From contig CALSMY010000014.1 of the NCBI GenBank assembly GCA_943787575.1, positions 1 to 64,000 of the forward strand: a stretch of 64,000 nt of DNA, written 5' to 3'. The notes under the pieces are model-generated. The model saw only the letters and a program-made list of their open reading frames with translations. It had not been told where the DNA came from and did no database searches. Of the stretch, positions 43,039 to 52,443 are shown piece by piece; position 1 is the first letter of the stretch, and the number at the start of each line of letters is the position of its first letter. A program made the position numbers and the translations under genes. Origin of the DNA: an uncultured Opitutales bacterium. Lineage in GTDB: Bacteria > Verrucomicrobiota > Verrucomicrobiia > Opitutales > Seribacteraceae.

Positions 43039-44079
43039 ATGATAAGCAACCTATTCGGCTTTCTTTCCAATGATATTGGAATAGACTTGGGCACGGCCAA
43101 CACCTTGGTTTTTGTCAAGGATCGTGGAATAGTGCTTCGTGAACCAAGTGTGGTCGCTCGCTACAAAACGAGTAAGAAAGTATGTGCAGTAGGTTCCGAA
43201 GCCAAACGTATGCTTGGTCGTACTCCCGGAACTATCGAAGCTTTGCGCCCCATGAAAGACGGTGTTATTGCTGACTTTGAAATATCCGAAGCCATGCTCC
43301 GATATTTCATCGAAAAGGTTGATAAACGAAAATTGGTTCCCCCGCGCGTTGTCATTGCTGTTCCCTCTGGTATCACTGCGGTTGAAAAACGAGCAGTGAA
43401 AGACTCTGCAATTAGAGCAGGAGCTCGGGAAGTTTTATTATTAGGTGAGCCCATGGCTGCATCTATTGGTGCTGGCCTCCCTATCCATGATGAATACGCA
43501 AACATGATTGTGGATATTGGTGGTGGAACAACCGAAGTTGCCATTATTTCAATTTCTGGGGTTTCCTTTCAACGAAGTATACGCGTTGGAGGAGATGAAT
43601 TAGATGAAGCCATAGTTGCCTACATGAAAAAAGCCTACGGTTTATTAATTGGTGAAAGAACTGCGGAAGAAATCAAGTTTTCCATTGCGTCAGCTTCACC
43701 GTTAGAATCAGGTGAGCTAAGTATGGATGTAAGAGGTAGAGATTCTACTGCGGGCTTGCCCAAAACCATTCATATCACTTCCCAGGAAATTCGAGAAGAA
43801 GCACTCAAGGAAGTGGTTCAACAAATTGTTGATTTAGTTAAAAATGCTCTGGATCGTTGCCAACCCGAACACTCCGCTGACCTGATCGATCGTGGGGTTG
43901 TACTGGCCGGTGGTGGTGCTCTTATTAGAGGATTGGATCAAGTTATCAGTGATGCAACTGGCTTAACTGTGATTCAGGCAGAAGACCCATTAAGTTGCGT
44001 GGCTAATGGCACAGGCGAATTCCTCAACCTGCTCGACTCCTTGAGTCGCGAACAGATTGATCGATTGGTAACCCAATAA
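43039..44079 (+). CDS. mreB: Rod shape-determining protein MreB
   Basis: Bacterial actin, 346 residues, cytoplasmic filament organising the elongasome. PHOSPHATE 1 [27 protein letters not shown] (about 12-38), [43 protein letters not shown]-type loop, PHOSPHATE 2 [19 protein letters not shown], and ADENOSINE [13 protein letters not shown]. All intact. mreC follows after 9 nt. The 114-nt gap upstream probably holds the operon promoter, but no convincing -35/-10 pair is visible. Confidence 0.96.
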   Translation: [346 protein letters not shown]

Positions 44080-44088
44080 CTTTTCACC

Positions 44089-44964
44089 TTGGCCGCTCCC
44101 AAGGACAGGCCCAAGTTTGGACCCTTTTTTATATTGGGTGTCTTTTTTGCTCTTTTTATCGGACTGCCATCTAGTTGGAAAATATTCACCCAATCAGCCT
44201 TTGATGAATTCCAGGCCCCCATTTGGGAAATTACTTCGAGAATATCAGATTTAAGTAACTACTGGGGGCACCAGGCTGATTCTAAAAAAACTCTTATCGC
44301 CAAAAACCGTGATCTTGCAAGAATTCGTGCAGATTGGACGGTTCACGAAAACAACAAAAAAAATTGGGAAAATGAAATATCCCGTCTTAAAGACCTAAGA
44401 TCACGCCTAGTTATCCTGCAAAAAGAGATCGGGATTGACCCTGAAGTTTCCTTCCAACCTATAATCGCTAGGGTTACCCACCGTAATCTCAGTTCATGGT
44501 GGCAAGAACTATCCTTACGAAAAGGAAGCAACCAAAAGATATCCCCTGGTATGGGTGTAGTTTTTTCTCATGGAATTGTTGGAAGAATTAAACGATCTGG
44601 GTTTAATTCCTCAAAAGTTGAGCTATGCACAAATCCAAATTTTCGAATCGTTGCCCACTTTCAAGGAGATGACAGACCGGTAACTTTTCAGGGTGACGGA
44701 ATCCTTCCCGGTGGTAAACCCATGGGCGTAGTCTTAGATGTGCCTCACGACATAACCATTGAAAAAGGCAAACCACTGTTTTTAAAAACATCTGCCCTGG
44801 GAGGTACCTTTCCAAGCGGCCTTCATATTGGAACAGTAAGAATGCTCGAGGAAAGTGGGGATGGACTATTTAAAAATGGTAAAGTTATCTTACATAAAGA
44901 CCTAGGAAAAGTCCCCGAAGTCTCAGTACTCAGACCTACTCCCCCTCAAGGAAAACAGGAATAA
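44089..44964 (+). CDS. mreC: Rod shape-determining protein MreC
   Basis: 291 residues: an N-terminal helix (GPFFILGVFFALFIGLPSSW, about 10-30), a coiled coil (SDLSNYWGHQADSKKTLIAKNRDLARIRADWTVHENN) and the periplasmic beta-barrel domain (PIIARVTHRNLSSWWQELSLRKGSNQKISPGMGVVFSHGIVGRI, then PGGKPMGVVLDVPHD). The start is TTG 44089, the only one compatible with the family N-terminus. mreD follows after 3 nt. Confidence 0.9.
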   Translation: MAAPKDRPKFGPFFILGVFFALFIGLPSSWKIFTQSAFDEFQAPIWEITSRISDLSNYWGHQADSKKTLIAKNRDLARIRADWTVHENNKKNWENEISRLKDLRSRLVILQKEIGIDPEVSFQPIIARVTHRNLSSWWQELSLRKGSNQKISPGMGVVFSHGIVGRIKRSGFNSSKVELCTNPNFRIVAHFQGDDRPVTFQGDGILPGGKPMGVVLDVPHDITIEKGKPLFLKTSALGGTFPSGLHIGTVRMLEESGDGLFKNGKVILHKDLGKVPEVSVLRPTPPQGKQE

Positions 44965-44967
44965 GAG

Positions 44968-45498
44968 ATGGCTTTAAACCGACTTTTGGGCGTACTTATC
45001 TTAGCCAACTTCATATTTATCGTAACCTTATCCTTATTTAATTCGGTAATTGGGAAGTGGGGCTTTTTTCTTTATCTGCCTGGCCTTTTTTTTATTCCAC
45101 ACTATCAACTACTTGGATTGAATCGTAGTTTGCCTGCTCTTTTTCTTAGTGGCCTAAGCTTCGATCTTTTTTTTAACCATACTCTTGGTTTCCATGCGTT
45201 TGCCATGTGCCTAATTTTTCTAATCGCCCGGGAATTTTTGCACTTAGGAAAGCAAAGCTCTATCCAAATTACTATTTTTCAGCTCATTGCCAACCTGATC
45301 ATGGCTATTCTATGGGCAATACTCTGCACCTCATTCCAACCAAGCCTTTCATCTTGGACATGGACACGTTTTTTGATCGAACTTCCACTATCTATGGTTT
45401 TTCTCATTCCACTTTCGCTATGGTTTTCTAGCTTTTGTAATAGTTTGATTATGAGAATAAAGCCCACATCCGAAGGACTTCCTTTGCTTAATAAATGA
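44968..45498 (+). CDS. mreD: Rod shape-determining protein MreD-like
   Basis: 176 residues, about five membrane helices: LLGVLILANFIFIVTLSLF, GFFLYLPGLFFIPHYQLLGL, LPALFLSGLSFDLFFNHTLG, LIANLIMAILWAILCTS and LPLSMVFLIPLSLWFSSFC. The LFLSGLSFDLFFNHTLGFHAF stretch matches the MreD family position. Assignment relies on location between mreC and mrdA and the helix layout; MreD sequences are poorly conserved. The stop overlaps mrdA by 4 nt. Confidence 0.78.
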   Translation: MALNRLLGVLILANFIFIVTLSLFNSVIGKWGFFLYLPGLFFIPHYQLLGLNRSLPALFLSGLSFDLFFNHTLGFHAFAMCLIFLIAREFLHLGKQSSIQITIFQLIANLIMAILWAILCTSFQPSLSSWTWTRFLIELPLSMVFLIPLSLWFSSFCNSLIMRIKPTSEGLPLLNK

Positions 45499-48083
45499 AG
45501 TTTTTTGAGAAATATTTTCCTGAAACTCGACGCTTTCGAATTTTTGCAGGAGTCTACCTTGGTCTTTTTCTTGTTTTATTTGGTTATTTATTTTTTAGGC
45601 AAATTTGGGAGCGGGATGCTTACCTGGAAAAAGAGCGTATTCAGGGTCAAAGAAGAATTCTAAAACCTGGAGCTAGAGGAGATGTTGTAGACCGAGAAAA
45701 TAATCTCTTAATTGGCAATCGGGCACATTATTCAGCTACCCTTCATCTTGAGCTTCTTAATAGAAAAATTTGGGAAGAAAAAGTTAAACTTCGAAGATTA
45801 TCTTATTCGATGCGAGAGGAACTCTCTAAAATTCCTCATTTGGATTTAGTCGATTTACTTAACTTTAGCTTTACTAATGATCATGTAAGCAAACGAGCAA
45901 TTACTCTTAGCGGGAAGGTTATTTCACCCGATAAAAAAGTAGCCGTATGGATAAACGAAAAACAACTAAGTGTAAAACAATCACGAAATTCATGGGTTTG
46001 CAGAATCGAAAAGTCTTTGACCAAAAAATTCCGGTCTTTTCGAGTTGTTAATTCGGAAAACCACCTAGTTGCCGATATTGGAGGTTTGTTTTCTTTGGAT
46101 TATGATCTGGATTCCCAAGGCCTGCCCCTAGCAAAGGTTAATAGTGCAAAGGTTGACCAATCGTGGCTTGGAAATGTTCTCAATGGGACCGAGGATGGGT
46201 CTCTTGATTTTTCGGTAAACGGATTTTCACATTCCTGGGAAGCAAGATATACTGTGGTACAAAATTACCTAAGTGAAGTAAATCGCTTAACTGGTCGAAA
46301 TAGCGAGTTAAGTATGAACGATATTCAAAAACATTGGCGTAGAAAACTCGTTCTTCCTCTGGAAATCTGTGGTGATTTAACGAACGAAGAATATGCAGTT
46401 CTAGTAGAGAAACTTCCCCCAGAATCGCCTATTCAGGTTCAAGCAAAAGCGGTTCGGTATTATCCGGAAAGTTACCTTGCTTCTCATGTTTTGGGATATG
46501 TGGGCAGTGGCTATGAAGCAAACTTAGATTCACTTGCCGGTGCTGACCTCGCTACTTTTGAACTCCAAGGAAGAACAGGTAAGGCTGGTGTTGAAAAAGC
46601 TTTTGACCATCAATTACGCGGCAAAGACGGTGCGGACATTTGGATCGTCAATCCAATGGGTTCGCGTTTTGAAAGAGTGCAAAGGCAAGCGTCCGAGAAA
46701 GGAAAGTCTGTCCACCTTACCCTTGATCTCGATCTTCAAAAAGTTGCCGAACAATCAATCGATCGAATGGTTACGAAAGTGGCCAGCCAAAGGATTTTAC
46801 CAGATCGGGATTGGGCTCGGACTTTAGAGCGCAGAACGAGTCGTGCCCTACTTGGGACGAATGAGACAGAAGTTCGTGCTGAATTACTACTCTCCGCTTT
46901 CAAAGATGCCCCTTTCCCCTTAACAGGAAAACAAGCATCAACCGTGGCCGGTTTCAAAGGGACAGAAGAGGATGCTCAAAGACTCCTTAGGCGTCTTTAT
47001 TCGCAAGGTGTTTTACAAAGGGCGGCAAATAACCCAGGAGCTTTTTCCCTATCCCCCCCCCTTCCGCCCCCCGGTGCTGCTGTTCTTCTAGATTTAGAAA
47101 CCTTTGAAATTCTTGCTCTTGCCAGTAAACCAAATTACGATCTTAGCAGTTTAACTCCTTATATTTCACAGGCTGCTTATGATGAAATTCAGAGGAATGA
47201 GGCTTGGTTACCTCGGGCTTGGCATCCCGGCTATGCTCCGGCATCTCCATTTAAATTAGTAACCGCACTTGCGGGACTAGGAGCCAACACGCTGGACCCG
47301 AGCGAAGAATTAAAGTGCGAGGGGATTTACCGGGGTATGAAATGCCATGTACACCCGGGACAGCATGGAGAATTGAATCTTCGTCAAGCAATTGCTCAGA
47401 GCTGCAATGTTTACTTTTTTAGATGTGCAGAAAGGATGGGACATGAGCATTTAATTTCTGAAGCAAGAAGAGTGGGAATGGACCAAAGACCTTTGTTGGA
47501 TCTCCCATCATTAAGAGACTCACCTATCGTCCCGGATCCGACTTGGAAGAAGAATCGAGTTGGAGTTAATTGGACAATGGAAGATACCTTTAACATATCA
47601 ATTGGCCAAGGCGGTCTCAGACAAAGTCCACTACAAATGGCTTGTTTTATGGCAAAATTGGCGGCCAATCTTAAGTCTTTCGACCCTAAAATCACGATCA
47701 ATCCGAAGCCTGAATCCATTCCTTTGGAACCGCTCACAGATGATGCAAGCAGGCAAGCCATCGTTGACGGTATGATCTTGGCTACTAAGGAAGGAACGGC
47801 GAGAAGGTGTCAAATTGATGGAGTCTTGGTTGCGGGCAAGACAGGTACAGGGCAATGGCGTAACCACAATATGAAATTAAACCTCGCATGGTTTATCGGT
47901 TTTGCTCCGGCAGATTCTCCCAAGGTTGCGGTATCTGTATTAATCGAAGGCGTTATTCCTCAAGACCAAGTACAAGGAGGATTGACCGCTACGCCAATCG
48001 CCCGAGACTTACTTGCGGCCTACTTTGCAAAATATCCGAATTCCTTATCATCAATAAAACATAATACCCCCCAAGCCCCCTAA
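45495..48083 (+). CDS. mrdA: Penicillin-binding protein 2, elongation transpeptidase, with insertion
   Basis: 862 residues, larger than typical PBP2 (about 600-650), acting in lateral wall synthesis with the Mre proteins. N-terminal anchor (FRIFAGVYLGLFLVLFGYLFFRQIW, about 14-38), KPGARGDVVDRENNLLIGNRA, and GYVGSGYEANL with the ELQGRTGKAGVEKAFDHQLRGKDG stretch of the dimerisation region. Transpeptidase motifs: SPFK (Ser about 584), SCN (SCNVYFFRCAER) and KTG (VAGKTGTGQWRN). Between LTLDLDLQKVAEQSI and PGAAVLLDLETFEILALAS, where relatives have only a few residues, about 105 residues are inserted. RodA is not in the window. Start ATG overlaps the mreD stop. Confidence 0.9.
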   Translation: MKFFEKYFPETRRFRIFAGVYLGLFLVLFGYLFFRQIWERDAYLEKERIQGQRRILKPGARGDVVDRENNLLIGNRAHYSATLHLELLNRKIWEEKVKLRRLSYSMREELSKIPHLDLVDLLNFSFTNDHVSKRAITLSGKVISPDKKVAVWINEKQLSVKQSRNSWVCRIEKSLTKKFRSFRVVNSENHLVADIGGLFSLDYDLDSQGLPLAKVNSAKVDQSWLGNVLNGTEDGSLDFSVNGFSHSWEARYTVVQNYLSEVNRLTGRNSELSMNDIQKHWRRKLVLPLEICGDLTNEEYAVLVEKLPPESPIQVQAKAVRYYPESYLASHVLGYVGSGYEANLDSLAGADLATFELQGRTGKAGVEKAFDHQLRGKDGADIWIVNPMGSRFERVQRQASEKGKSVHLTLDLDLQKVAEQSIDRMVTKVASQRILPDRDWARTLERRTSRALLGTNETEVRAELLLSAFKDAPFPLTGKQASTVAGFKGTEEDAQRLLRRLYSQGVLQRAANNPGAFSLSPPLPPPGAAVLLDLETFEILALASKPNYDLSSLTPYISQAAYDEIQRNEAWLPRAWHPGYAPASPFKLVTALAGLGANTLDPSEELKCEGIYRGMKCHVHPGQHGELNLRQAIAQSCNVYFFRCAERMGHEHLISEARRVGMDQRPLLDLPSLRDSPIVPDPTWKKNRVGVNWTMEDTFNISIGQGGLRQSPLQMACFMAKLAANLKSFDPKITINPKPESIPLEPLTDDASRQAIVDGMILATKEGTARRCQIDGVLVAGKTGTGQWRNHNMKLNLAWFIGFAPADSPKVAVSVLIEGVIPQDQVQGGLTATPIARDLLAAYFAKYPNSLSSIKHNTPQAP

Positions 48084-48086
48084 ACT

Positions 48087-48677
48087 ATGGTTGCTACTCC
48101 ATCTACTATGCTTCCATTGGGAACAAAAGCTCCCTCCTTTTCCTTACCCGATGTTTGCACCAATCAATCTACTGATCTTGAGGCTGTCGATATTAACAAA
48201 GGATGCTTAATTGCATTCGTCTGTAATCACTGCCCTTATGTCATCCACCTCTTAGACCCACTCGTAAGAATGAGTAATGAATGGATCAAAAAAGGAATCA
48301 AAGTTTTTTTGATTTCTTCGAATGATGCGGATAAATATCCGGATGATTCTCCAGTTAAAATGAGAGAACTCGCTGAAAAAAAACAATTTCAATTCCCATA
48401 CCTCTATGATGAAGATCAATCTGTTGCCTTAGCTTACAGAGCAGCATGCACTCCAGATTTTTTCCTTTTTGATTCCAAGCTTTCTTTATTTTATCGTGGA
48501 CAGTTTGATGATTCTCGCCCCGGAAATCAACTTGAGGCAACTGGGACTGAACTATCATTGGCCGTTGATAGTCTTTTGCTAAATCAGCCAGCTCCGAAAG
48601 TCCAAAAGCCTAGCCTAGGATGTAATTTGAAATGGAAGAGTGGAAACGAACCTGAATATTTTAAGCCCAAAAAATAG
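48087..48677 (+). CDS. Thioredoxin-fold AhpC/TSA-like protein
   Basis: 196 residues of the redoxin (AhpC/TSA-like) superfamily. Start MVATPSTMLPLGTKAPSFSLPDV; active site IAFVCNHCPYVIHL with CxxC (CNHC) in the thioredoxin position; then WIKKGIKVFLISSNDADKYPDDSPVKM and the cis-Pro region AACTPDFFLFDSKLSLFYRGQFDDSRPGN. Similar proteins in marine bacteria are annotated as thioredoxin family with unknown partners. No signal peptide, so cytoplasmic. Follows mrdA by 3 nt. Confidence 0.82.
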   Translation: MVATPSTMLPLGTKAPSFSLPDVCTNQSTDLEAVDINKGCLIAFVCNHCPYVIHLLDPLVRMSNEWIKKGIKVFLISSNDADKYPDDSPVKMRELAEKKQFQFPYLYDEDQSVALAYRAACTPDFFLFDSKLSLFYRGQFDDSRPGNQLEATGTELSLAVDSLLLNQPAPKVQKPSLGCNLKWKSGNEPEYFKPKK

Positions 48678-48720: not shown

Positions 48721-51700
48721 CTATTTGGTTGTCATCACATAAACACCATCCCAATCCGCTGCTGGAGGGTTTTCTCTCATCACCTTGCAACGATCTATTA
48801 AGATCATTGATGGATTGTCTTTCACCCCTGGGGTTACGCCTGGTTTATTTGGTTCCATCCCCTTCGCTTTTTCAAAAAGGCCCAAGGCTCCATCCCAATC
48901 TTGCAACAAGTATTTGTCTATTCCCTGCTGAAAACAATCTAGGCAATCTTGTGTTTCCTGAGTTAACTCAGACAGAAAACCGGTTGGTTCATACATGGCA
49001 ACAGGTTGAGATCTGCCCTTGACCACAATTCTATCCAGATACCGAAAGGCAATATCATCTTTCGTCTTTTCAGAAGCCAACTTGGTTTCCTCAGTAACCA
49101 TGATGTATGCCCCGTAAGCTTTGGCTCCACTCTCACACCGAGCTGCCAAGTTCACCATATCGCCCATCATCGTATAATTGAAACGATCCAATGCTCCCAT
49201 ATTTCCAACCGTAGCGGTTCCAGTGTTACAACCAATACGGGTTTGCATTTGAGTGACAAGCCCATGACACTTCCCCCACTTTTCAACCTCAGGCACCCAC
49301 TTTTCCCGAAGAGCAATTTGCCTTTGCTGCATTAGGATAGAGGTCCTTACAGCTTGATACGCATGATCTTCCATAGGGATAGGTGCACCATACATGGCCA
49401 CAATTGCATCTCCTATGTATTTGTCTAATGTGCCTCTTTCCTCCTGTAAAATATTGGTCATCTCGGTCAAATACTCGTTCATTAAATCAACCAGACCCGT
49501 AGGAGTGAGAAGTTCCGAAAAACTGGAAAACGCTTGAACATCACTAAAGAAAGCGGTGATTGCCGTTTCCTCACCACCCAAGTGATGGTTCTTTTCCAGA
49601 TGCAACCATTTCCTCAACCAAATCGGAAGAAACATAACTACCGAACATACCCTTCAATCTACCCTTAGCTTTTTGTTCGATCACCACCATAGCGGCCAGC
49701 CCAATAAACGAAGTACTTAACCCAGCACAAGCAGGGACGGTAATAGGCCAGATCACATGAGTCTGGGAAAAAGTCTCGAAGCCAAAATAAACATAAGCTA
49801 TTAAAAGAATAAGACCACTAGCTTGTACTATACTTGCCCTTTTTCCTTGGTATACAGCAAGGAAAGCCATAACAAGACAAACTCCCAAAGTTGCTAAGTG
49901 ATCCGCCCTAATCGGCAAACGATGTAAGTATTCTTGGTGGGTTAAAGTTTTGATCAAGTTCCATGTACGCTAACCTTAGGGACTGAAGACTGATCAAATG
50001 GAGTAGGTGCCAAATCTTGAAATGTAGCTTCCTCAGGACCAATCAAAACAATTGAATCATTAAAAATATTAAAAAATGATTCAATTCGAGCCATTTCTTC
50101 TTTTTGACCAAGAAGAGTTTTTTTATTATTCGCGATAAGTTCCTTAACAACTTTAATGAAATTCTTATATTCCGGATTTTGGGGATCTTTAGAAAGTGCA
50201 TCTTGAGCTTCTTTTATCTTCTGTTGACCTTTTTCTATAGCTTTTTCCAATTCATTTATTTTCGCCGAGACCGTGTCGTGATATCTTCCATAATTTAAAA
50301 TATCAACCATTCCACACATAGGGTTATATTCTGACTCAATGCTTGCTGGAATAAAGTAGTAAGCAATACCATCCAACACCTGAATTAACTCATTAAGTCC
50401 GGGTAGATCTTGGAGTTTATCAGAAGAATTAACGAGTAATTTTTGGGCTATATCAATAAGTTCATTTTCCAACCCTAAATCGGTCATTGCTTGTATTAAA
50501 CCTTCGTTACCTATCAATACTTTCAAATTCTCGACACGATCTAGAGTAAGTCGAAAAATTTTGGGAATTACTGACAAATATGCTTCGATATCACCATCAC
50601 TGTAGTCTTTTTTAGCTTTCCTTATGAGCACATCTACGGTCGAAAGTTGAGACCAAGACGAGAACCAGTTTACTTCGATCCATTGCCCCTCGGTCAAGGG
50701 TGCCTCAAGCAGAACTTCCCCAGAAAGGTTATATAACACCATATTCTCCCGGTTTTGGGAAATCTCAACCTGTTCAGGACCAATTCCGTAATAAGCCAAT
50801 AATGCCTCTAAACCTAAGGTGAAAAAATTCTCATTTCTGAACAAAGGAACTTCATTAGGCAAAGAGTCGACTAAAACACCAGCCGATTTGTCTCCCTCAG
50901 CTCTTTTGTACACCAATCGCAAGGTGTGATTTGTTTCTACTAGCTCTGTGTCAACCAAACCTTGAAGCTTAGAAAGAGTAAACTGAATATTCTCCACCGT
51001 ATTTTCAGTTTCAGTGAGTTGGTCCCTTGCTTTATTAAGTTTAACTGCCGTATCTGCTAATACCGGGAGGATATCCAGTAATTCCTTATCTTTAAGAGCT
51101 TGCTTACCTGAGAGGCGTTCTAAGACATCTAATATCTCTTGGTCCGCGACTGGCTTACCAAGTGCTTCAATTTGCTTTAACAAATAAACTCGCCTCGACA
51201 AATGACCTTCAATTTGAGGGTTTATTACAGCAGACAAACCGGGGTTTGTCTTTAAAGTTTCTTTAAAGTTACCAATAACTGTATTTATTTCAGCCAATTC
51301 GGTCTGAATTTCATCAGGAGAATAAACATTTTCCCACCCACCTGTTTCCACTACTGAAAGAACTTGCCAATAAATAAAGCCTCGCTTGGAAATCCTCTCA
51401 TCTATTTGTGGCCTTAAGGTAGTTGCAAGAGTAGGAACTGCCTTCAATGTACCTTTAAGAGTAGTTATTTCATCTCCCAAACCCTTAAGATTGTCTTTCA
51501 ATTTTTGTAATCGATCAATTCCACTCTCAATTTCTATTTTCTTTTGATTGTAAGTTGAATGCTCTGCTTCAGCTTCTGCTATCTCCTTCTTACAGAAAAC
51601 CATTAAATCTAAATTCTTAGACAATTCACTCTTTAGATCGTCTATTGAGGTTTTGTTTTCTACAGAAGATTCTAATTCAAGAACATTTTGTTTTCCACCT

Positions 51701-52443
51701 AACAAGTTGTATGCGTGTGCCTTGCCACCCCCAGGGAACCATAAAGGAGCCCACCTTGGAATTTCATCTACTGCACGGAAAGGTGGCACTGAAAAAGATC
51801 CTAACCTACCAATATACTTTCCGTTTTTATAATTTTGTAAGGGGTAAGTTGGTGACTCAGGATAAGTAAAGTCACTACTATTTTCAGAATACCCCTCCGA
51901 AAAAAGAGGTGCAAATGCACTGGCATTTACAGGTTTAACGAAGGGTGTTTGTACTCCCGAATATAAACATCCCAAAATTACTTGATTTGGAAATTTATCC
52001 ACCAATTGGCCCATGGCTAAGTCACTGCGATATGAATTTTTGCGAGGTACCATTTTCGACATACTTTTGGGAGTAAAACCAAAGTCGAAGCCTATTGAAC
52101 GAGCACGCCCTTTTTCCAAAAGAGTAAAGGCAGTATCACGAAAAAAAGCACGATCCCAAGGACGCTCCCCTACTCCGTCCATTGCCAATGTAGCTGCATC
52201 AAAGTTGACATAAACTAACTTGGGTATTCTGGGAACCGTTTTGTTGTTCTTCTACTTGTAATTCTGTCCAATGCATTCTCGTCAAAATCTCTGAGGAATC
52301 TCGCCGCGGTATTGTTTTCTCAAATCGACCGATTTGATTTTTAAATAATCGAGAGTTCCGAAATGATTCAGAGCAACCCAAATAAATGGGATAAAGAGAA
52401 GGGCGAAAAAAGTAAGTTTAGATTCTTTGCTTAATTTAAACAT
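48721..52443 (-). pseudogene. CHASE2-domain adenylate cyclase with large coiled-coil insertion, frame-disrupted
   Basis: Membrane-bound class III cyclase of about 1240 residues once repaired. N-terminus at ATG 52443 with one helix (SKLTFFALLFIPFIWVALNHFG), then CHASE2: LVYVNFDAATLAMDGVGERPWDRAFF, SIGFDFGFTP, and after a long insertion SIVLIGPEEATFQDLAPTPFDQSSVPKVSVHG. Several helices follow (AYVYFGFETF region), then the catalytic domain AITAFFSDVQAFSSFSELL, LDKYIGDAIVAMYGAP and TMMGDMVNLAARCESGAKAYG: both metal Asp residues, the adenine Lys and Asp, and the transition-state Asn/Arg are present, so adenylate rather than guanylate cyclase is likely. Indels at about 52284-52287 (extra T), 52239-52242 (missing A), 49959 (missing A) and 49577-49579 (extra G) break it; each is a one-base repair. 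Confidence 0.75.

Follow-up and report, generated by a model that had tools for sequence, protein, structure and literature searches.

A family-specific insert, probably a winged helix, in the transpeptidase domain of an Opitutales PBP2

A PBP2-type protein and its described relatives

PBP2, which cross-links the growing cell wall, is among the core enzymes for growth as a rod. The head subdomain of A. baumannii PBP2 comprises pedestal residues 78-165, and zinc is held there by D350, D365, H371 and C384 (PMC9974482); in H. pylori the head of PBP2 contacts MreC (PMC5626683). Lineage-restricted domains are known in other peptidoglycan synthases, where UB2H of PBP1B and ODD of PBP1A, the latter a region between the GTase and TPase domains, bind their cognate lipoproteins LpoB and LpoA (PMC3060616). 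The protein described here has in common with the PBP2/MrdA enzymes of E. coli (6g9p), P. aeruginosa (7kis), A. baumannii (7zg8) and H. pylori (5lp4) a pedestal and a transpeptidase domain, the three catalytic motifs, an mreBCD-PBP2 operon and a RodA encoded in the same genome. It differs from them in an insert that follows the first transpeptidase helix, a further insertion in the head of the pedestal, and a score below the cut-off of the PBP2 equivalog.

The gene lies in the window, the whole stretch of 64,000 nucleotides that was analysed, at 45495..48083 (+), an open reading frame of 862 amino acids encoding a PBP2-type class B penicillin-binding protein with two family-specific insertions. 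It is preceded by mreB (43039..44079, +; Pfam PF06723), mreC (44089..44964, +; Pfam PF04085) and an mreD-like gene (44968..45498, +) that was assigned by position and has no Pfam match, so that the locus reads mreB-mreC-mreD-PBP2. The order is identical in the sister families wherever the neighbours are readable, and this common operon supports orthology with the sister-family PBP2, to which the neighbourhoods, the alignment and the tree all point. Besides the 862-residue protein the only PBP2-like match in the genome is an FtsI-like protein; there is no second copy of PBP2, and the gene is therefore single. Pfam places the end of PBP_dimer at residue 394 and the start of Transpeptidase at residue 527. 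A full-length AlphaFold model has a long N-terminal helix (residues 10-37), which by eye reads as a membrane helix. The prediction is of a single membrane crossing close to the N-terminus, with the remainder of the protein outside, and of the membrane helix, PBP_dimer and transpeptidase domain of a PBP2/MrdA.

All three catalytic motifs (SxxK, SxN/D and KTG) are intact, as the first-pass annotation had stated. By alignment they are SPFK at residues 584-587, with the catalytic serine S584 (47244..47255, +), SCN at 636-638 (47400..47408, +) and KTGT at 782-785 (47838..47849, +), and S584, K587, S636, N638 and K782-T783-G784-T785 are invariant across 16 relatives. Between and beside them runs a putative zinc-ligand stretch (C608, C617 or H618, H624 and C637; 47316..47405, +). 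C608, C617, H618, H624 and C637 are invariant, adjoin the active site and correspond in the alignment to the zinc ligands of the A. baumannii enzyme, which suggests a Cys-rich zinc site, one that some of the sister families have lost.

Against the NCBI PBP2 equivalog TIGR03423 the protein scores 368 bits, under the cut-off of 455 bits, which is a threshold for annotation. With both insertions cut out the score is 389 bits, as against 497 for one sister-family PBP2, and this persistent shortfall indicates that the core has diverged too. We assign the protein to the PBP2 type because of where it stands in the operon, its presence as a single copy, and its domains and motifs.

Two neighbouring genes may be recorded here. 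In those family loci that have downstream DNA, PBP2 is followed by a gene for an AhpC/TSA-type redoxin (48087-48677 in the window), whereas no such gene was seen next to PBP2 in those loci of sister families that were read. Beyond it a long gene on the opposite strand (48721-52188, -) ends in an adenylate/guanylate cyclase-like part. In the window it is broken into three overlapping open reading frames in different frames, and in six relatives (L003, L005, L006, L008, L009 and L013) it is a single frame of about 1156-1252 amino acids; three further loci end at a contig or locus edge. The frameshifts are either assembly errors or decay.

The transpeptidase-domain insert and its predicted fold

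The insert occupies residues 423-525 (46761..47069, +), as defined by alignment lengths and a family profile, and lies between the flanking blocks LTLDLDLQ (residues 408-415) and AAVLLDL (528-534). From residue 405 to residue 535 there are 131 residues in the window PBP2, compared with 31-39 in 20 phylum-wide PBP2s and three re-aligned sisters, and at the equivalent point there are 110 residues compared with 10-15 in 37 sister-family PBP2s (over all 57 aligned PBP2s from outside the family, 31-39 residues stand against the 131). Whole-protein matches to the sister families break off at about residue 423 and restart at about 527. An insert of about 105 residues had been noted at 46765-47075, corresponding to residues 424-527; it is real, and from the lengths given above it amounts to 100 residues more than in PBP2s outside the family.

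Three parts can be distinguished. The first is a helical lead-in (residues 425-455; 46767..46859, +), in which AlphaFold prolongs the first transpeptidase helix and adds a second. There follows a probable winged-helix part (residues 456-520; 46860..47054, +) with the predicted order helix-helix-helix-strand-strand, delimited from AlphaFold, Foldseek, the PF08100 match of one basal copy (G329) and conservation, and carrying the conserved pattern FxxAPFPLxxxxASTVAGFxGTxxDA. The third is a proline-rich exit linker seen in the alignment (residues 520-526; 47052..47072, +), of which P522, P525 and P526 are invariant.

The fold is a predicted one, and the first-pass annotation had proposed both a winged helix and an AlphaFold model as the means of checking it. 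A model of the insert with its flanks, built from 16 sequences, gives fragment helices 5-28 and 36-55 for the lead-in, then helices 58-63, 74-79 and 87-99 and strands 103-105 and 113-115, i.e. three helices and a two-stranded wing. Its confidence is moderate (pTM 0.43; overall pLDDT 65, with about 70-80 in the final part). The full-length model also has the two lead-in helices (412-432 and 437-452), but is poor (pLDDT 57, pTM 0.38), and its listed fold matches are PBPs; for this reason we do not read from it where the insert lies with respect to the active site. The best Foldseek matches of the insert model are largely winged-helix proteins, among them regulators of the IclR and MarR types, Z-alpha and the N-terminal region of O-methyltransferases, with probabilities up to 0.99 and the tightest matches at about 3 Å rmsd over some 61 residues. 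The E-values are at least 0.04 in the PDB and at least 0.03 in a viral library, so that none reaches 0.001.

Sequence comparison leads to the same group of folds. The insert of G329 matches PF08100 with E = 5.4e-5 (23.4 bits, where the gathering score is 25.6) and TBPIP with E = 0.0055, and that of G328, the other basal genome, matches PF08100 with E = 0.0084, all of these being under the curated cut-offs; the basal copies also match SelB winged helices (E = 0.046). MarR regulators rank first, not significantly, when the insert profile is run against the PDB. In profile-profile comparison two sub-threshold matches had probabilities of 79% and 52%, against about 0.1% for two unrelated controls, and these scores check only the register, as the matches had been chosen by the same profile. 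Taken together the results support the winged-helix proposal with moderate confidence, and the insert is likely a helical lead-in followed by a winged helix. That it is instead some other small helical domain, with a function as in the readings considered below, is doubtful: in absolute terms the confidence of the model is low, and the fold-search E-values are above 0.001, which leaves some room for this, but the model, the fold search, the Pfam matches of the basal copies and the profile matches converge on winged helices. An unstructured linker, which the first-pass annotation had named as the other outcome, is ruled out by the conservation and the predicted helices.

The predicted winged helix has a net charge of -6 to +2. 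With a near-neutral or acidic domain, and a predicted site outside the membrane, DNA binding would not be expected; prediction supports the fold, its topology and a surface that is not of the nucleic acid-binding kind.

Distribution, constraint and possible function

How general is the insert? Of 42 genomes sampled from the window's own family, 38 have a PBP2 that covers the point, and every one of these carries the insert, at near-constant length. A profile of the insert and its flanks found it in none of 237 other Opitutales genomes (the order sample being 273 genomes, 36 of them from the window's family), and in a wider sample of the phylum the one clear match was in the window's own genome. 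The insert is thus lineage-specific, as had been proposed, being confined to one family of uncultured Opitutales; in PBP2 of other Verrucomicrobiota, where the first-pass annotation had suggested looking, it is missing from the sampled families outside the window's own. The thought that it might belong to ordinary PBP2 holds within that family but is false for every other family sampled from the order and the phylum, and we reject the insert as a general PBP2 feature. In a tree calculated without the inserted columns the insert-bearing proteins form one side of a branch with an SH-aLRT of 100, and the trait is explained by one change on this tree. The insert was gained once.

No source for it was found. 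There is no second copy in the genome, viral contigs gave no further relatives, and no donor gene was seen among the sub-threshold profile matches in other genomes, which are winged-helix-like segments of unrelated proteins (the N-terminus of RNase R and the C-terminus of a YihY-like protein, for example) together with some apparent noise.

Purifying selection on the insert is about as strong as on the catalytic domain, with dN/dS of about 0.03-0.10 compared with about 0.035-0.08 for the transpeptidase domain (a simple counting method, using only pairs with finite, non-zero estimates). The basal genus aside, conservation over residues 456-508 at least matches the catalytic domain and exceeds that of most of it, and the conserved residues include ASTVAGFxGT, a likely surface turn. 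Given the low dN/dS, and the same place and near-equal length throughout the family genomes covered, the insert is no chance feature. The basal genus (G328 and G329) has only 19-21% identity to the window over residues 456-508, where its dN is 0.63-0.74 compared with 0.28 for the catalytic domain. Its copies (L088 in G328 and L089 in G329) have 3-4 extra residues and a very different sequence, and are nearer to ordinary winged-helix families than are the other copies in the family.

A second insertion, missed by the first-pass annotation and also unique to the family, lies in the pedestal head at about residues 100-245 (45792..46229, +; alignment lengths and AlphaFold strands), is about 115-130 residues long, and is predicted to be beta-rich over about 133-205. 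The span of residues 67-249 contains 183 residues in the window PBP2 and 161-199 in the family, compared with 29-68 in the sister families and 15-66 across the phylum. The full-length model has strands at 136-205 with pLDDT of about 80-90, and there was no match in Pfam. This insertion is fast-evolving and of variable length (dN/dS 0.15-0.67). From the position of the A. baumannii head and the contact of the H. pylori head with MreC, it would lie in or adjoin the region that binds MreC.

What might the transpeptidase-domain insert do? We suggest that the elongation transpeptidase acquired a domain of about 100 residues once, in the stem of the family. It would sit between the first transpeptidase helix and the next strand of the catalytic sheet, as a helical extension and a winged helix outside the cytoplasmic membrane that leave the catalytic motifs intact, and the winged helix may provide a site of protein-protein docking or regulation coupling the transpeptidase to a family-specific envelope partner. 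The strict position and length (bar the few extra residues in two genomes), a dN/dS near that of the catalytic domain, the conserved turn ASTVAGFxGT and the single gain are consistent with this, and by analogy with UB2H and ODD we infer that the insert docks a partner. Of the readings considered here we favour a lineage-specific docking or control site, but tentatively, at a little short of an even chance. A co-inserted partner in RodA or MreC is rejected, as neither has a matching insertion and both are of ordinary length in the family. The divergence and rapid evolution of the basal genus at residues 456-508 make it unlikely that there is one conserved interface throughout.

The constraint and strict length would also fit internal packing, in which the winged helix lies on the transpeptidase domain or the pedestal and governs how substrate enters or how the domains are oriented, an outside partner playing no part. 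The pedestal insertion arose on the same branch. In the SxxK fold the loop that leads into the first core strand shares one end of the sheet with the loops that border the active site, and this general feature of the fold would place the insert near them. Yet the pedestal insertion is variable, both in length and in sequence, where the transpeptidase insert is not, and packing cannot be read from so poor a full-length model; we consider such an intramolecular regulator unlikely, if well worth keeping in mind. It is improbable that the winged helix binds and positions peptidoglycan strands or stem peptides. The insert is in the catalytic domain and is predicted to be on the side of the membrane that faces the cell wall, but matches no peptidoglycan-binding family, and its near-neutral or acidic surface gives no pointer to such a role. 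Least probable of all, in our estimate, is an insertion that has little specific function and is tolerated where PBP2 varies in length, with only the fold being kept. The junction does accept added length, as the two aligned blocks of C. difficile PBP2 (7rcw) are separated there by some 24 residues, and the copy in the basal genus is fast-evolving; against this stand a dN/dS in the catalytic range, no loss in 38 genomes and invariant residues of surface type.

Comparison with inserted and winged-helix domains of other proteins

The presence of a strongly conserved domain in the catalytic half of PBP2 in one family only suggests that the control of cross-linking there differs from that in model bacteria. 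If the docking reading were true, it would be a new mode of control of the Rod complex in bacteria that keep MreBCD, PBP2 and RodA. That a winged helix not binding nucleic acid has been recruited in this way, to serve docking or control by a regulator that this family alone has, is possible, and we would put it at appreciably less than even. In one full-text search of an open library of papers, penicillin-binding protein, winged helix and transpeptidase domain occurred together only in a paper on the mecD resistance gene, which is off the subject.

The same predicted fold and order of helices and wing is found in PF08100 (O-methyltransferase dimerisation), TBPIP/Hop2, SelB, the MarR and IclR regulators and the N-terminus of RNase R. 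Those winged helices are known as intracellular domains that make contacts with nucleic acid or protein. The insert is unlike them in being predicted to lie outside the membrane, in belonging to a cell-wall enzyme and in not being basic. For the pedestal insertion the nearest parallel is the insertion of 60 residues that subclass B5 PBPs carry in the equivalent N-terminal subdomain (PMC4038516 mentions it). Each is a large addition to that subdomain of a class B PBP, of a kind proposed to serve protein contacts, but the B5 insertion consists of four helices and that of the window PBP2 is predicted to be beta-rich.

UB2H and ODD differ from the transpeptidase-domain insert in belonging to class A PBPs, in their places within the protein and in having known lipoprotein partners, and no match of the insert to either was found in Pfam or the PDB; the resemblance is one of role only, and unproven. 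Like them, the insert adds a small domain with no catalytic role to a peptidoglycan synthase, and does so in a restricted lineage.
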